Shown piece after piece: positions 1-33,809 of a DNA stretch of 64,000 nt. The DNA is from Acidimicrobiia bacterium (GTDB taxonomy: Bacteria; Actinomycetota; Acidimicrobiia; Spongiisociales; ZC4RG35). Under the pieces are notes generated by a model that saw only the letters and a list, made by a program, of their open reading frames with translations, did no database searches and had not been told where the DNA came from. Each line of letters begins with the position of its first letter. Positions within the stretch are counted from its first letter, which is position 1. The stretch spans positions 54,799 through 118,798 of the forward strand of contig PKRG01000007.1 in assembly GCA_017577575.1 (NCBI GenBank). The letters are read 5' to 3'. The position numbers and the translations under genes are program-made.

Positions 1-162
1 ATCCTGATCGACCGCTATGCGCTCCAGCCGCAACGCACCCTGTACACCGACGACCTGCCCGAGAACGTCGACCAGGCCCGCCGCCTGGGCTTCCAGGCCG
101 AGCTGTTCACCACCCCCGAGTCGCTGCGCGATCGGCTCGGGGGCCTCGGACTCATCCGATAG
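1..162 (+). CDS. HAD-superfamily hydrolase, C-terminal end (5' truncated by window)
   Basis: Frame 1 is open from the first base to a TAG at 160-162 and gives the last 53 residues of a protein. The stretch TDDLPENVDQARRLGF matches motif IV of HAD family IA phosphatases, where the acidic pair binds the catalytic Mg2+ and is followed by the usual N..A...G surface. Substrate and full length cannot be judged because the nucleophile DxD motif lies outside the window. Its stop overlaps the end of the leftward ABC ATPase by 11 nt, so the two genes converge. Confidence 0.75.
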   Translation: MLIDRYALQPQRTLYTDDLPENVDQARRLGFQAELFTTPESLRDRLGGLGLIR

Positions 163-898
163 CCGGCGAAGGCGCCCGCGACAGCGCCGAGAGGACGTGC
201 TGTCTCGTCCTCACCAGCTCCCGGGAGGCCAGGTCCCGGGGCCGGCGGTCGTCGACGTCGACGATCTCGACGACATGCCCGGGTTGGCCGGAGAGGACCA
301 CGATCTCGTCGGCGAGCCGCAGCGCTTCGTCGATGTCGTGGGTGACGAGGAGCACCGTCTGGCGGTCGGCTGACCACAGGTCGAGCAAGTGCTGCTGCAG
401 GTCCGCCCTGGTCAACGCGTCGAGCGCGCTGAACGGCTCGTCCAGCAGCAACACCTCGGGAGATGTCACGAGAGCCCTGGCCAGGGCGACGCGCTGGGCC
501 ATCCCGCCCGACAGTTGCTTGGGCAGGGCGGTGGCGAAGTCCGCCAAGCCCACCCGCTGCAGCGTCGCCTCGGTCCGGGCCCGCGCCTCGGCGGCCGGCA
601 GGTGGCCGATCCCGAACGCCACGTTGGCGGCGACGGTGAGCCACGGCATCAGCCGCGGTTCCTGGAACACGACGCCGACGTCGGGGGAGGGGCCGGTGAC
701 GGGCCGGTCTCCGACCCACACCGTCCCCTCCGTCGGACGCTCCAAGCCCGCCACCAAGCGGAGGAGCGTGCTCTTGCCGCATCCACTCCCACCTATGACA
801 GCTGTCAGCCGGCCTTCCGGCACGTCCAGGTCGACACCGTCCAGGGCGAGATGCCCGTTCGGGTATCGCAGCGAGACGCCCTCGAGACGGACCTTCAT
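152..898 (-). CDS. ssuB: ABC importer ATPase, SsuB/TauB type
   Basis: A 248-residue nucleotide-binding subunit that would power import with the adjacent permease. The Walker A GGSGCGKST lies near residues 36-44, the Q-loop glutamine near 79, the signature LSGGM near 129-133 and Walker B with EP near 148-155. The H-loop THDIDEA and the 'EPRLMPWLTV' context are typical of the nitrate/sulfonate/taurine subfamily. The ATG overlaps the permease stop (ATGA), implying translational coupling. It is the last gene of a leftward operon controlled by a SAM riboswitch, so a sulfur compound is the likely cargo. The exact substrate is inferred; ssuB is a family-level name. Confidence 0.85.
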   Translation of the reverse strand: MKVRLEGVSLRYPNGHLALDGVDLDVPEGRLTAVIGGSGCGKSTLLRLVAGLERPTEGTVWVGDRPVTGPSPDVGVVFQEPRLMPWLTVAANVAFGIGHLPAAEARARTEATLQRVGLADFATALPKQLSGGMAQRVALARALVTSPEVLLLDEPFSALDALTRADLQQHLLDLWSADRQTVLLVTHDIDEALRLADEIVVLSGQPGHVVEIVDVDDRRPRDLASRELVRTRQHVLSALSRAPSPAIG

Positions 899-1746
899 GA
901 AGGCCTCGACTGGAAGTCGTCCTGCCAACGCACCAGCCGGGACCCCGCTCGAGCCAGCCCCCAGTCCGTGACCTTTCCGAGCAGGGCGAAGAGCACGATC
1001 GAGGCGATGATCACCGCCGGGCGGCCGGTCATCTGCCCGTCGACCAGCAGGTAGCCGAGGCCCCGGGAGGCACCGAGGAACTCCGCCGCCACCACGAACA
1101 TCCACCCCAGGCCGAGGCCGCCGCGCAGTCCGACGAGATAGGTGGGGAGGGATGCCGGGAGCAGGATCCGACGTGTCAGGTCGAACGTGCTCAACCCGTA
1201 GGTGCGCCCCACCTCGACGAGCTTGCGGTCCACCGAGCCGATGCCTTCCACCAGCGCCAGGTAGACCGGGAAGAACACGCCGACGGCGATCAACAGCACC
1301 TTCGGGGTCTCGAATATCCCGAACCACAGGATGAACAACGGGGTCCAGGCGATCGACGGGATGCTGCGCAGCGCCTGGAACGTCGGGTCGACGAACGCCC
1401 GGAACCTGCGGGACACGCCGCTCGCCGCCCCCAGCACCGTGGCCACGGTGACGCCCAGAAGGAATCCCCAGAGAACGCGCCACAACGTGGCCACGGTGTG
1501 GTCGGCGAGCTCCCCCGATGCCGCGAGCTCGAAGACCGTGCCGGCGATCTGGCTGGGGGAGGGGAGCAGCCGGGTGGAGACGAATCCCACCCGGGCTCCC
1601 ACCTCCCACAGCACCGCAGCCAGCAGGGGGAGGAGGAGCCCCTGCCAGCCCCATCCCCTGCGGCGGGCGACGGTCGGTCGTCGGGTGGGAACGACCACCT
1701 CGCCCAGGTTGGGGGACGTCTCGACGATCGTTTCGGGAAGGGCCAT
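895..1746 (-). CDS. ssuC: ABC importer permease, SsuC/TauC type
   Basis: A 283-residue inner-membrane subunit with about six hydrophobic segments and a polar N-terminal tail of some 30 residues. The cytoplasmic loop reading VEVGRTYGLSTFDLTRRILLP resembles the EAA coupling loop of binding-protein-dependent permeases. Length and order (binding protein, permease, ATPase) match sulfonate/taurine importers. It overlaps the binding-protein stop by 1 nt and the ATPase start by 4 nt, so the three genes are surely one transcript. Substrate assignment rests on the riboswitch and the binding-protein family. Confidence 0.85.
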   Translation of the reverse strand: MALPETIVETSPNLGEVVVPTRRPTVARRRGWGWQGLLLPLLAAVLWEVGARVGFVSTRLLPSPSQIAGTVFELAASGELADHTVATLWRVLWGFLLGVTVATVLGAASGVSRRFRAFVDPTFQALRSIPSIAWTPLFILWFGIFETPKVLLIAVGVFFPVYLALVEGIGSVDRKLVEVGRTYGLSTFDLTRRILLPASLPTYLVGLRGGLGLGWMFVVAAEFLGASRGLGYLLVDGQMTGRPAVIIASIVLFALLGKVTDWGLARAGSRLVRWQDDFQSRPS

Positions 1747-2732
1747 CAGTCCTCCAGGTCCGCGGTGAAGCTCGGGTCGAACAGCTCGTCGAGCACCGCC
1801 TGCACGTCGACGTCGGCCTCGATCTCACCGGCGGCCTGCAGCGCCTCGCCGGCGCCGAGGATCGACTCGTACTGCGGGTCACCGAGCTTCGGCGTCGTGA
1901 AGCTCGTCCGGTCCAGCTGCGCCTGGGCGACCTCGATCGACAGGTCGGCGGCCTCGGCGAGGATCTCGGCCAGCTCGTCTGGGTTCTCCAGAGCCCACTT
2001 CCGGGCCCGCTCGTAGGCGGCGATCACCCTCTCGACCAGCTCGGGGTGCTGGGCGGCGAACTCCTCGTTGACGTTGAGGATCCCCCACGTGTTCAGCTCC
2101 GGACGGCGGTAGAACAGCCTCGCCCCCTGCTCCAGCTCCGCCTCGGCCATCATCGGGTCCAGGCCGGCCCAGGCGTCCACCTGTCCCTGTACCAGAGCGT
2201 TGCGGCCATCGGCGTGCTGGAGGAGCACCGCTTCGATGTCGTCCTCGGACAGGCCGTGATCGGCCAGAGCCCTGACCAGGAAGATGTGAGGATCGGTGCC
2301 ACGGGTCACCGCCACCCTCCGCCCCGCCAGGTCCTCGACCGTCTGGATGTCGCTGTCCTCGAGTGTGACGAGGGCGGTCCACTCCGGCTGCGAGTAGGCG
2401 TACACGGACTTGATCGGGCTGCCGGAGACCTTGGCGAGCAGGGCGGCGGCCCCGGCGGTCGAACCGAACTGCACGCTGCCGGAGTTCAGGAACTCGATCG
2501 CCTTGTTGCTGCCGGCGCTCTGGACCCAGGCGACCTCGATGCCATCGGCGCTCAGCTCTTCCTCGAGCCAGCCGAAGTGCCTCAGGACCAGGCTCGTCGG
2601 GTTGTAGTACGCCCAGTCGAGCGTGATGGTGGACGGCGTCTGGGCGGCTGCCCCGCCGCTGCACGCGGCGAGGGCCACGGCGGCGACCAGAGCCAAGACG
2701 CCAACGGTCGTGTCGAAGCGACGACGAAACAT
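1746..2732 (-). CDS. ssuA: Periplasmic-type binding lipoprotein of sulfonate ABC importer (SsuA-like)
   Basis: A 328-residue solute-binding protein. A hydrophobic signal segment ends in the lipobox LAAC near residue 23, followed by SGG, so the mature protein is a lipoprotein anchored outside the membrane. The body (TLDWAYYNPTSLVLRHFGWL, then GSAGA-like substrate loops) fits the NMT1/SsuA/TauA fold. A strong AGGAGGT lies 6 nt before the ATG. It is the first full-length gene after a SAM-I riboswitch and a cysteine-rich leader peptide, so expression should rise when S-adenosylmethionine, and perhaps cysteine, is scarce. The substrate could be an alkanesulfonate, taurine or another organosulfur compound. 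Confidence 0.85.
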   Translation of the reverse strand: MFRRRFDTTVGVLALVAAVALAACSGGAAAQTPSTITLDWAYYNPTSLVLRHFGWLEEELSADGIEVAWVQSAGSNKAIEFLNSGSVQFGSTAGAAALLAKVSGSPIKSVYAYSQPEWTALVTLEDSDIQTVEDLAGRRVAVTRGTDPHIFLVRALADHGLSEDDIEAVLLQHADGRNALVQGQVDAWAGLDPMMAEAELEQGARLFYRRPELNTWGILNVNEEFAAQHPELVERVIAAYERARKWALENPDELAEILAEAADLSIEVAQAQLDRTSFTTPKLGDPQYESILGAGEALQAAGEIEADVDVQAVLDELFDPSFTADLED

Positions 2733-2819
2733 GCAAGACCTCCTGTGGACGAACGGAACGAACGGACGGACGCCGGAAAGGGGGATCCTCTCGGGTGATG
2801 GCGTCTCGAGGGCCGGCTG

Positions 2820-2906
2820 TCAGGCGGCCCCGGGGGACACCCGAGAGCAGCCACAACAGCGCCCACAGGCGGATGTCGTCGCCGACGGAAGTCGTGTGAT
2901 CGTCAT
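2820..2906 (-). CDS. Cysteine-rich leader peptide (28 aa) upstream of the sulfonate importer
   Basis: A short reading frame of 28 codons starts with ATG at 2906 and ends with TGA at 2820. It contains the run ACGRCCGC, that is four cysteines at residues 14, 17, 18 and 20, all within 7 codons (TGT, TGT, TGT, TGC). GAGG sits about 6 nt before the ATG. The stop codon falls in the loop of a 6-bp hairpin (arms 2825-2830 and 2810-2815). Cysteine-codon leader peptides that sense Cys-tRNA by ribosome stalling are known upstream of sulfur genes in mycobacteria. Here the peptide lies between a SAM riboswitch and the importer. Translation is inferred from RBS, context and codon content only. Confidence 0.55.
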   Translation of the reverse strand: MTITRLPSATTSACGRCCGCSRVSPGAA

Positions 2907-2974
2907 GTCGAGCCTCGGTTGTCGGTGCTTACTTCTGATGCGCTCTGAGCGCCGCAAGCCTCCGACGGCTCGAC
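2907..2974 (-). promoter_or_regulatory. Possible RBS-masking helix of the leader peptide (riboswitch expression platform)
   Basis: On the minus-strand RNA the 8-mer GTCGAGCC (2974-2967) is perfectly complementary to GGCTCGAC (2914-2907), which ends directly before the leader ATG and covers part of the GAGG. A further GTCGG/CCGAC pairing extends the inner side past a bulge. The 5' arm begins only 5 nt after the riboswitch P1 strand, so ligand-dependent switching of this helix is plausible. This is a paper fold only. Confidence 0.45.
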
Positions 2975-2978
2975 GGCA

Positions 2979-3073
2979 ACTCATCGATCGGGCGTTAGCA
3001 CCGTGCCCGAGTCAGGACTCGGGTCGGTTGCCGCGGCTTCACAGGGCCCGTCCCTCCACCGCTCTGGATGAGC
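2979..3073 (-). promoter_or_regulatory. SAM-I (S-box) riboswitch
   Basis: The minus strand shows the S-box core almost letter for letter: CTCATCCAGAGCGGTGGAGG, then GACGGGCCC, TGAAGCC and GGCAACC. Later segments are GGTGCTAA and the closing GATGAG. P1 is CTCATC/GATGAG (3072-3067 with 2985-2980). These are the conserved P1, P2 internal loop (GGAGGGA.UGGCCC) and SAM-contacting positions of RF00162. In this family SAM binding switches off sulfur and methionine genes. It precedes an SsuABC-type importer, which fits. The downstream part shows no clear U-tract terminator, so translational or leader-coupled control is more likely. Confidence 0.92.
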
Positions 3074-3091
3074 GCGTTGTCAACCGGCGAG

Positions 3092-3121
3092 AGGCTACAA
3101 CACCGCGGCTGGAAAGGACAA
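3092..3121 (-). promoter_or_regulatory. Candidate promoter of the SAM-riboswitch transcript
   Basis: Reading leftward, TAGCCT (3097-3092) makes a TANNNT -10 box, with TTGTCC 18 bp upstream (3121-3116) as a possible -35. Transcription would start near 3085, about 12 nt before the riboswitch P1 helix. Placement supports the call; the -35 match is weak. Confidence 0.35.
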
Positions 3122-3186
3122 GCCAGTAGCCGGAGACGCCCGTCCGGGGCCGGCAGGGGGTGGGGGTTACAATCACGGGGACACAC

Positions 3187-3260
3187 GGGGCTGTAGCTCA
3201 GTCCGGCAGAGCACCTGCCTTGCACGCAGGGGGTCAGGGGTTCGAATCCCCTCAGCTCCA
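3187..3260 (+). tRNA. tRNA-Ala (TGC)
   Basis: A full cloverleaf can be drawn. The acceptor is GGGGCTG/CAGCTCC with one G-U, the D arm contains TAGCTCAG, the anticodon stem CCTGC/GCAGG encloses loop CTTGCAC (anticodon TGC), and the T arm is GGGGTTCGAATCCCC. The discriminator is A. CCA is not encoded. Confidence 0.95.
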
Positions 3261-30655: not shown

Positions 30656-30689
30656 TCGTGCACCCCACCGTCGGAGAAAAGCCGATCCG

Positions 30690-30928
30690 GTGGCGACGGC
30701 CGCCGGCTCCAGCCAGGCACCCCTACGGCACCCGGGATGCTCCGCTTAGGGCTGCTTCCTTCCGGACCTGACCCGGTTCACGGTATCCCGCCGCGTAGGA
30801 CCCGGCCTTCGACACCACGTGTCCGCCGACCTGTTAGCCCGGTCGGCGCCCTCCTCGGGTGGGGAATTCGGCCCCGCATGGAGGGGATTTCGGGTACAGG
30901 GCACCCCTAGCGCCCCGCTTAGCACGAT
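30690..30928 (-). ncRNA. ffs: Signal recognition particle RNA, large form with Alu domain
   Basis: The universally conserved SRP54-binding hairpin reads GGGTCAGGTCCGGAAGGAAG then CAGCCCTAA on the minus strand (about 30768-30740). It is flanked by complementary arms CCTACG (30799-30794) and CGTAGG (30727-30722), then GGCC-type pairings. About 90 nt upstream the RNA shows CCTGTACCCGAAA (30900-30888), then CATGCGGGGCCGAA, closely resembling the Alu domain of archaeal and large bacterial SRP RNAs. A TAGCCT box at 30941-30936 predicts a 5' end near 30928, and a short T run (complement of 30677-30680) lies after the 3' end. Boundaries are approximate. Confidence 0.85.
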
Positions 30929-32825: not shown

Positions 32826-33809
32826 TCACGGCAACAGGTCGTCTGTGAACACCTCCGACACGTCGACCGTCGTTGCCAGGGCGTCGTAGGACAACAGGAA
32901 GTCGTGGAGCGCCTGCCACTGGCCGGCGGTCTGGAACCCGAAGCCGTGCGCTTCGGTCTGGTCGGTGATCGCCTCTTCGAGCTCGGTCTGGAGCATGAAC
33001 AGCTGGTGGTCCCGGTCGCCGTCATCACCGACGTACTGCATGACGATGTCGACCGCTGCCTCCGGGTCGTCACGGGCGAACTCGATCCCCCGGATCACCG
33101 CCCGCATGAAAGCGCGGAACTTCTCCGGGTTCTCTTCGATGGCCTCTTCGGTCGCCACGTAGGCCAGGCCGAGGGTGGGGGCGCCGTAGTCGGCGGCGTC
33201 CCACATGTTGAGCTCGAAGCCCCAGCTGCGCAGAGTGTCGGGCTCGTTGGACTTGAACACCGGGTACACGTCGACCTGGCCCTCGGTCAGCACCCGGGGG
33301 TCGAAGCCGACGTTGACCAACTCGACGTCCGACTCGTCCAGCCCGACGGCGTCGAGGATGGCGAACACGTCGGGCGGGGGAGTGCCCTTGTAGCCGACCG
33401 TGCGGCCCGCCCAGTCCTCCGGCGTCTCGATCCCGCTGTCCGCCAGCGCCACGAAGGCCTGCTGGCCCCGCTGGCCAATGAGGCCGATCGACACCAGCGG
33501 CAGCCCCGGGTCGGCCCGGCGCTGGAGGAGGACCGCAGCGTCCTGGGTCGTCACGTCGACCTCTCCGGCCGTCAGCAACTGGAGGTGCTCACCCCCGCCG
33601 GCGGAGTGCTCGATCGTCACCTCGAGGCCCTCCTCGGCGAAGAACCCCTGCTCCTGGGCGACGTACGCCCCCACGAATGGCAGGTTCGCCTGCGGGGCGA
33701 ACCCGGCCATGAACGTCATCGCCTCCTTCTCGGAGGTGGCGGCGGCTCCGCCACCGCATGCCGACACCACCACGGCGAGAGCCGCGGCCAACAACGGGAA
33801 ACGTCTCAT
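32826..33809 (-). CDS. NMT1/THI5-type ABC binding lipoprotein (riboflavin or thiamine-precursor importer)
   Basis: A 327-residue binding protein. The signal ends in the lipobox VVSAC, followed by GGG. The body starts FMAGFAPQANLPFVGAYVAQ and continues GFFAEEGLEVTIE, a pattern of the NMT1/THI5-like group that includes ThiY (formylaminopyrimidine) and RibY (riboflavin). The four-gene operon is headed by a regulator with a flavin-type PNPOx domain, which favours a flavin or related vitamin as ligand; this is inference. No TPP or FMN riboswitch is seen. It is the last gene of the operon, overlapping the permease by 4 nt. Confidence 0.8.
   Translation of the reverse strand: MRRFPLLAAALAVVVSACGGGAAATSEKEAMTFMAGFAPQANLPFVGAYVAQEQGFFAEEGLEVTIEHSAGGGEHLQLLTAGEVDVTTQDAAVLLQRRADPGLPLVSIGLIGQRGQQAFVALADSGIETPEDWAGRTVGYKGTPPPDVFAILDAVGLDESDVELVNVGFDPRVLTEGQVDVYPVFKSNEPDTLRSWGFELNMWDAADYGAPTLGLAYVATEEAIEENPEKFRAFMRAVIRGIEFARDDPEAAVDIVMQYVGDDGDRDHQLFMLQTELEEAITDQTEAHGFGFQTAGQWQALHDFLLSYDALATTVDVSEVFTDDLLP

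Follow-up and report, generated by a model that had tools for sequence, protein, structure and literature searches.

A candidate cysteine-codon leader element, found with and without a SAM-I riboswitch, before sulfur-related genes in an order of Acidimicrobiia

The leader region of the ssuA locus

The window analysed here is the whole 64,000-nucleotide stretch of an Acidimicrobiia bacterium genome (assembly GCA_017577575.1, contig PKRG01000007.1), and one end of its minus strand carries a presumed operon whose first gene (1746..2732) encodes an ssuA-like sulfonate-binding protein, matching the aliphatic sulfonate binding family TIGR01728 of NCBIfam with 236.8 bits (cut-off 163.5) and PF09084 with 2e-31. 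The same strand continues with genes for an SsuC-like ABC transporter permease (895..1746; PF00528, 7e-27; best NCBIfam match NF008470, SsuC, below its cut-off) and an ABC transporter ATPase (152..895; PF00005, 5e-36). Upstream of the operon, likewise on the minus strand, lies a SAM-I (S-box) riboswitch aptamer at 2978..3074 (RF00162, 70.2 bits against a gathering score of 44.4, model positions 1-108), one of three SAM-I riboswitches in this genome. Elsewhere in the window, the minus strand encodes a second SsuA-like relative with 32% identity (33039-33794; G000:C52:87837-88592) and a bacterial large SRP RNA (30656-30927; RF01854, 163.5 bits), while the plus strand has seven tRNA matches, among them one (3187-3260) that lies close upstream of the riboswitch, on the strand opposite to it.

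Between the riboswitch and ssuA, the minus strand contains a 28-codon frame (2820..2906; ATG at 2906-2904, stop codon TGA at 2822-2820) with the product MTITRLPSATTSACGRCCGCSRVSPGAA (28 aa), in which Cys occupies residues 14, 17, 18, and 20, the corresponding codons (2867-2865, 2858-2856, 2855-2853, and 2849-2847) amounting to four in seven positions. A Shine-Dalgarno-like GAGG (2913..2916, minus strand) stands six bases 5' of the ATG; together with the position of the frame 73 bases behind riboswitch helix P1, it argues against a leaderless start if the riboswitch is co-transcribed. An earlier note on this DNA had described the frame, the GAGG, the four Cys codons in seven positions, and a stop codon in a hairpin loop, all of which are confirmed on the minus strand, and had placed the leader between a SAM-I riboswitch and ssuA, as is now borne out by RF00162 upstream and TIGR01728 downstream. 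As in an attenuator, the frame is short and its control codons are clustered and match the pathway of the gene behind them (four Cys in seven, before ssuA). No frame of 10-60 codons with four Cys in seven appeared in 3000 dinucleotide shuffles of the 245-base interval, and neither strand of the window has another stop-terminated frame of this type and length. Unlike most of its relatives, it has no Met near the hairpin. The frame matched nothing in Pfam, queried with the longer frame 2984-2823, or in NCBIfam, and a search of the leader stretch 2725-2980 against Rfam gave nothing over the gathering score, the only match being RF02464 with 19.1 bits against a required 50.

The frame runs from its Cys codons directly into a hairpin, here designated S1. 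Its 5' arm (CTCTCGGGTG, 2838..2847, minus strand; alignment A1) starts with the final base of the fourth Cys codon, reads Ser-Arg-Val right after it, and forms a 10-bp hairpin with the 3' arm CACCCGAGAG (2788..2797, minus strand), so that the stop codon of the leader falls in the loop. The second helix, S2, consists of GACGCC (2800..2805, minus strand), which is part of the S1 loop and ends two bases short of the S1 3' arm, and GGCGTC (2769..2774, minus strand). S1 and S2 share no bases, and their arrangement in the sequence is such that they could form an H-type pseudoknot or act alternately. The minimum-energy fold of the 354-base leader includes 10 of 10 S1 pairs, with pair probabilities of 0.65-0.94; in a 179-base piece without the riboswitch, S1 is absent from the minimum-energy fold and has a pair probability of 0.05-0.07. 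Neither the 354-base leader (z -1.44) nor the 179-base piece (z -0.56) is more stable than its own shuffles, and whole-leader stability was for this reason discarded as evidence.

The interval between riboswitch and frame is occupied by a hairpin, termed the platform, in which the strand GTCGAGCC (2967..2974, minus strand) is complementary to the Shine-Dalgarno region of the leader peptide, GGCTCGAC (2914-2907); all eight pairs of this helix are present in the minimum-energy folds of both the isolated platform and the 354-base leader. The inner helix of the platform contains GAGCGC (2940..2945, minus strand), which is complementary to GCGCTC (3070..3075, minus strand), the 5' strand of P1, and constitutes a possible alternative, anti-sequestor partner for that strand without SAM. 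If GAGCGC paired with the P1 strand instead, the sequestor would open in the absence of SAM.

Distribution and conservation of the element

A SAM-I riboswitch was detected in 95 of the 138 genomes of the order, and the 113 SAM-I loci that were read, which are part of the matches listed, include 36 with the element, that is, a Cys/Met frame running in a fixed phase into S1; it is absent from the other 77. When the loci are sorted by downstream gene, using BLAST clusters of first frames that were named from representatives, the element precedes 27 of 30 OsmC-like genes, 8 of 22 metY-like genes, and the only ssuA gene (1/1), together 36 of the 53 loci in these three classes, and 0 of 60 others, among which is a large metH-like group. 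The gene-class names metX and thrC are presumptive. The loci that keep the riboswitch without the element comprise three before OsmC-like genes (L078, L083, and L121) and 14 of the 22 before metY-like genes. Two loci, L072 and L078, have other short Cys/Met frames behind SAM-I (MTYNNSPATPLTLIRCVMGTCMCIHVGTRGPCQ and MRYPIEPSVSSPRHRCCRMP) with no standard S1 and have possibly diverged. A separate observation concerns a protein family located behind SAM-I in four clustered loci (L002:1645-2670 in the window's own genome, L038, L059, and L120), the L002 member of which (342 aa) has no Pfam match and is possibly an undescribed methionine-cycle enzyme.

Two further copies found later bring the SAM-I leaders to 38. 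In the eight codons before S1, Cys makes up 24% in the leader frame of these copies, 14.5% in frame 1, and 2.3% in frame 2, the respective values for Met being 17%, 0%, and 0.7%, and in-frame stops before S1 occur at 0 loci in the leader frame, 10 in frame 1, and 4 in frame 2. At least two Cys are present in 24 of the 38 leaders and at least two Cys/Met in 36; one leader has no Cys and six have no Met. Across all 79 copies read (38 with SAM-I and 41 riboswitch-free), the 5' arm is entered in one reading phase with no in-frame stop before it, and it reads Ser-Arg-Val in most. The 36 SAM-I copies found by riboswitch and hairpin provide the fairer test, although some of them were first noticed by their Cys frame. 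From these patterns, the frame looks coding rather than a by-product of the helix, and comparative conservation is the strongest sequence evidence against a chance frame. Since Cys and Met interchange among relatives, the pattern would fit the sensing of charged tRNA better than a metal-binding peptide.

Covariation of S1 was assessed over the 36 SAM-I leaders plus L005, a riboswitch-free relative described below. Two-sided changes occur in 7 of 12 pairs, 93.5% of 444 cells pair, and 0 of 500 shuffles reached the S1 score, while slid registers pair at 33-49%, a comparison that favours S1 because its structure was derived from the same sequences, which had themselves been chosen partly for the hairpin. 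Changes in one arm are matched by the partner, as in CTCTTGAGCG/CGCTCAAGAG, CTCCCCGGTG/CACCGGGGAG, and CTCTCAGGTG/CACCTGAGAG. L089 and L132 have the TGA stop of the leader within the S1 5' arm (CTCTTGAGCG) rather than in the loop, with a corresponding change in the partner arm. The distance between the arms ranges from 19 to 55 bases. S2 takes the form GACGACCGCC/GGCGGTCGTC in L069 and TGACCCGCCGC/GCGGCGGGTCA in L001; over 37 leaders its mean score is 8.1, as opposed to 6.3 +/- 0.3 with swapped partners and 6.7 with shuffled letters, and a score of at least 7 is attained by 26 of 37, swapped partners giving a mean of 16 and a maximum of 23. In several leaders, e.g., L062, L063, L086, L125, L131, L137, and L139, S2 is poor, absent, or located elsewhere.

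The platform shows a comparable tendency. The probability that the leader Shine-Dalgarno site is unpaired averages 0.20 over 33 loci, versus 0.47 with shuffled upstream sequence; the site is less free than in shuffles in 29 of the 33, and the probability falls below 0.3 in 24. The window itself is one of the four exceptions, its own site having a value of 0.49 versus 0.39 for shuffles in the isolated platform. The sequestering strands vary by locus, for example, GGTCTCC/GGAGACC in L066 and GACCTCC/GGAGGTC in L071. All 38 SAM-I leaders have a candidate start with an upstream Shine-Dalgarno match of at least four bases, a count that is not an independent test because the best candidate was chosen from several at each locus. 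The leader start lies 61-79 bases from P1 in 32 loci and 13-16 bases in five (L062, L063, L086, L092, and L093), L098 being mis-anchored. The best complement between the P1 5' strand and the platform averages 7.09 over 30 loci, eight having been skipped for a differing P1 and L098 being mis-anchored, compared with 5.96 +/- 0.15 for shuffled platforms. The anti-P1 pairing is thus present, but its sequences are nearly invariant, and it is hence weak as covariation.

The leader also occurs by itself. The nearest relative of the window's SsuA, in L005 of the same family, is 69% identical (the best among the 99 genomes searched, not counting the window's own), and the L005 locus has no riboswitch by Rfam and nevertheless keeps a Cys frame into the same hairpin, the peptide ending in CAVCRNSRV as compared with CGRCCGCSRV in the window. 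A leader without a riboswitch in L005 indicates that the two putative sensors are separable modules. A covariance model built on the element, R1, has matches at E values up to 0.01 in 64 of the order's 138 genomes, and these matches lean to Cys/Met since codon columns were included. Forty-four R1 matches without SAM-I in front were read; with L005 added and three false matches (L206, L212, and L214) and one cut match (L188) removed, 41 leader copies without SAM-I on their own strand remain, and 38 of the 79 copies read have one. Pattern and Rfam searches found no SAM-I on the leader strand at any of the 41, L162 covering only 148 bases upstream. Three riboswitch-free leaders (L184, L197, and L205) are divergent from a SAM-I riboswitch on the opposite strand. 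The genes behind riboswitch-free copies, classified from representatives only, include OsmC-like, rhodanese, metZ-like, and DUF4395 genes. In several such copies (L185, L187, L189, L194, L197, L200, L201, L205, L208, and L210), TTGACA-like and TAGCTT/TANNNT-like boxes are visible by eye shortly before the first ATG, a placement that suggests leaderless transcripts in those copies, a further likeness to the Cys-codon leaders of mycobacteria.

All 62 genomes with R1 matches in a class sample of 395 belong to the window's order, and the three matching genomes in a phylum sample of 396 are that of the window, another from its order, and L214, judged false; no accepted match lies outside the order in either sample, an absence that is weak because sensitivity was limited, nine candidates being scored per genome. 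A scan of named genomes with part of S1 and a CGCCA flank returned 78 stretches: 34 with the full 5' arm, 43 without it, and one cut by a contig end. Every full-arm stretch (34/34) has at least two Cys/Met in the ten preceding codons, and 23 have SAM-I in front, while 5 of the 43 arm-less stretches reach two Cys/Met. The titles of the full-arm stretches name Acidimicrobiia, Acidimicrobiaceae, Actinomycetes, Actinobacteria, Actinomycetota bacterium, plain bacterium, and, twice, Acidobacteria.

Considered against these data, the proposal in the earlier note that one leader combines two sensors is supported by the comparison (36 of 113 loci, in phase with a covarying S1), but not its Cys-only signal, as most relatives mix Cys and Met. 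The alignment of related leaders that the note called for retains Cys/Met codons before S1, although Cys and Met stand in for each other and the N-terminal parts differ. Loss of the frame with retention of the riboswitch, which it had named as contrary evidence, is not the rule yet does occur (3/30 OsmC-like, 14/22 metY-like). Its AND logic appears plausible insofar as the platform tends, in predicted folds, to enclose the leader Shine-Dalgarno site.

A proposed serial reading of the two sensors, and its rivals

The reading that we consider reasonably probable, from sequence comparison and predicted folds, is a serial two-input attenuating leader in which SAM-I would gate translation of the leader and Cys-tRNA (Met-tRNA in relatives) would gate S1. 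With SAM bound, P1 would form and the Shine-Dalgarno site of the leader would be hidden by the platform hairpin; in the absence of SAM, pairing of the P1 5' strand with the platform could release the site. The riboswitch is accordingly read as a translational OFF switch aimed at the leader peptide, its anatomy being observed and the switching being what we infer from it. Once translation is under way, the ribosome would read Cys codons (Cys and Met in most relatives) just 5' of the S1 arm. If charged tRNA is ample, it would reach the stop codon and leave, S1 and S2 would form, and the operon would be off; if charged tRNA is scarce, it would stall on the control codons and cover the S1 5' arm, and the operon would be read. 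The geometry of this step is observed: the S1 arm follows immediately on the control codons, so that a ribosome stalled on them would cover it, and the conserved helix is placed, as in an attenuator, for blocking by a ribosome on those codons; from this placement, we infer the stalling, the blocking, and their outcome. The predicted ON state would arise solely from low SAM combined with low Cys-tRNA (and low Met-tRNA in relatives).

Several routes were considered for the output step. The view of the S1 hairpin as a standard intrinsic terminator had to be given up because it lacks a U-tract (TTTT within 12 bases of S1 in 3 of 79 copies), and a search of 2650-3260 yielded nothing resembling a terminator. 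Sequestration of the downstream Shine-Dalgarno site by S1 was likewise rejected, as nested folding of 75 genes gave no consistent effect: mean access is 0.31 with S1 free and 0.35 with S1 masked, and masking raises access by more than 0.2 in 11 of 75 and lowers it in 5. S1 lies a median of 63 bases from the gene start and is followed by a C-rich stretch that would suit Rho; Rho-dependent termination in this stretch is our best guess for the shut-off route.

Other explanations account for parts of these data. Both sensors might be real and yet independent, with the riboswitch ending transcription or setting mRNA stability and the leader attenuating separately. Such independence would agree with the separability of the modules (41 leaders without SAM-I on their own strand, 77 of 113 SAM-I loci without the leader) and with the failure of the window's own Shine-Dalgarno site in the shuffle test, but we hold it to be unlikely given that the platform hides this site beyond shuffles in 29 of 33 loci and that the interval searched for terminators contains none. 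It is more doubtful still that the logic is inverted, with S1/S2 representing the ON state, as an antiterminator or a ribosome stand-by structure, and stalling lowering expression: a ribosome stalled directly 5' of the S1 arm would be expected from the geometry to block S1, and genes for sulfur uptake and assimilation are expected to be derepressed by starvation, even though the inversion could draw on the negative results for a terminator and for Shine-Dalgarno sequestration by S1.

The remaining explanations concern the nature of the conserved sequence itself. It seems very improbable that a sulfur regulator binds the inverted repeat as a DNA operator, the frame being incidental; the arms are strongly conserved, in the manner of a protein site, and covariation of a palindrome would be expected for DNA as well, but the spacing of the arms varies from 19 to 55 bases, the 5' arm follows Cys/Met codons in a single phase with 0 in-frame stops in 79 copies, and the second helix covaries. 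Equally slight is the chance that the product of the frame is itself functional, as a small Cys-rich, metal- or redox-binding protein under joint control by the riboswitch. Its CxxCCxC motif resembles metal-binding clusters, an impression opposed by the interchange of Cys and Met among relatives, the differing N-terminal parts, and the empty Pfam and NCBIfam searches. Least credible of all is a chance frame beside a riboswitch, for which its small size speaks and nothing more, against 0 of 3000 shuffles and conservation across the order.

Extending the serial leader beyond the window, we tentatively propose, at somewhat less than even odds, an order-wide RNA regulon of Acidimicrobiia built on an undescribed element, in about half of whose copies (38/79) SAM-I would control initiation of the sensor peptide, giving a serial AND gate for three sulfur metabolites, SAM, Cys-tRNA, and Met-tRNA, with no protein regulator.

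Significance and relation to known systems

Leader attenuation and riboswitches are both already known; a search of mainly open-access literature, judged by titles and the openings of abstracts, found no description of a SAM-I riboswitch combined with a Cys/Met leader peptide, or of the RNA element. Aptamers and codon-based sensors are usually studied singly, whereas in the present leader it seems to be a metabolite aptamer that determines if the codon-based sensor gets read, and the logic can be tested in relatives that naturally have or lack either module. With R1, the presumed sulfur regulon has a covariance model, in a class represented here chiefly by metagenome assemblies, and this presumed regulon would tie OsmC-like, rhodanese, and DUF4395 genes to the supply of cysteine and methionine.

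The mgtA and mgtCBR leaders of Salmonella are multi-signal leaders in which, as proposed here, a short peptide provides one of the sensors through its codons, next to another signal, although the signals, the RNA, and the lineage differ and no SAM-I aptamer is involved. These leaders are reported to carry Pro-codon peptides (PMC3641672, PMC6460261). The B12 (PMC11260477) and Mbox (PMC12810186) riboswitches of Mycobacterium tuberculosis likewise act with translated uORFs, Mbox being described as having a translational platform on its uORF together with Rho-dependent termination (PMC12810186). In the abstracts of these papers, the uORFs are not described as aminoacyl-tRNA sensors, whereas the uORF codons found here match the pathway of the riboswitch ligand (PMC11260477, PMC12810186). 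The LEU element of actinobacterial leuA resembles the present element in joining a control-codon leader peptide to a pseudoknot (PMC1262725). In LEU, the run of control codons is complementary to and pairs with the gene's Shine-Dalgarno sequence, an effect not seen here (PMC1262725).

Closer parallels exist among leaders with sulfur-related codons. MetL of Streptomyces lividans, a 29-residue leader before the methionine import genes metNIQ, likewise has mixed Cys/Met codons near its end, and termination there is called unclear by its authors (PMC8079986). As far as its description permits comparison, MetL differs in being leaderless, in having no riboswitch named, and in lacking Ser-Arg-Val in the printed peptide (PMC8079986). 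Cys-codon leaders without a conserved hairpin were predicted by Seliverstov in 2005 before mycobacterial and other actinobacterial cys genes (PMC1262725), one with ribosome occupancy was reported in M. smegmatis in 2015 (PMC4633059), and a response to cysteine was reported in 2020 by Canestrari et al., as cited in PMC9031893 and PMC13236596. Cysteine supply is thought to set the progress of the ribosome on these mycobacterial polycysteine leaders (PMC1262725, PMC4633059). The window shares with them an actinobacterial host and Cys codons clustered late in a short frame that precedes sulfur genes (PMC1262725, PMC4633059); compared with that prediction, the element described here differs in its covarying S1 and S2, its mixed Met codons, and its 38 copies behind SAM-I (PMC1262725).
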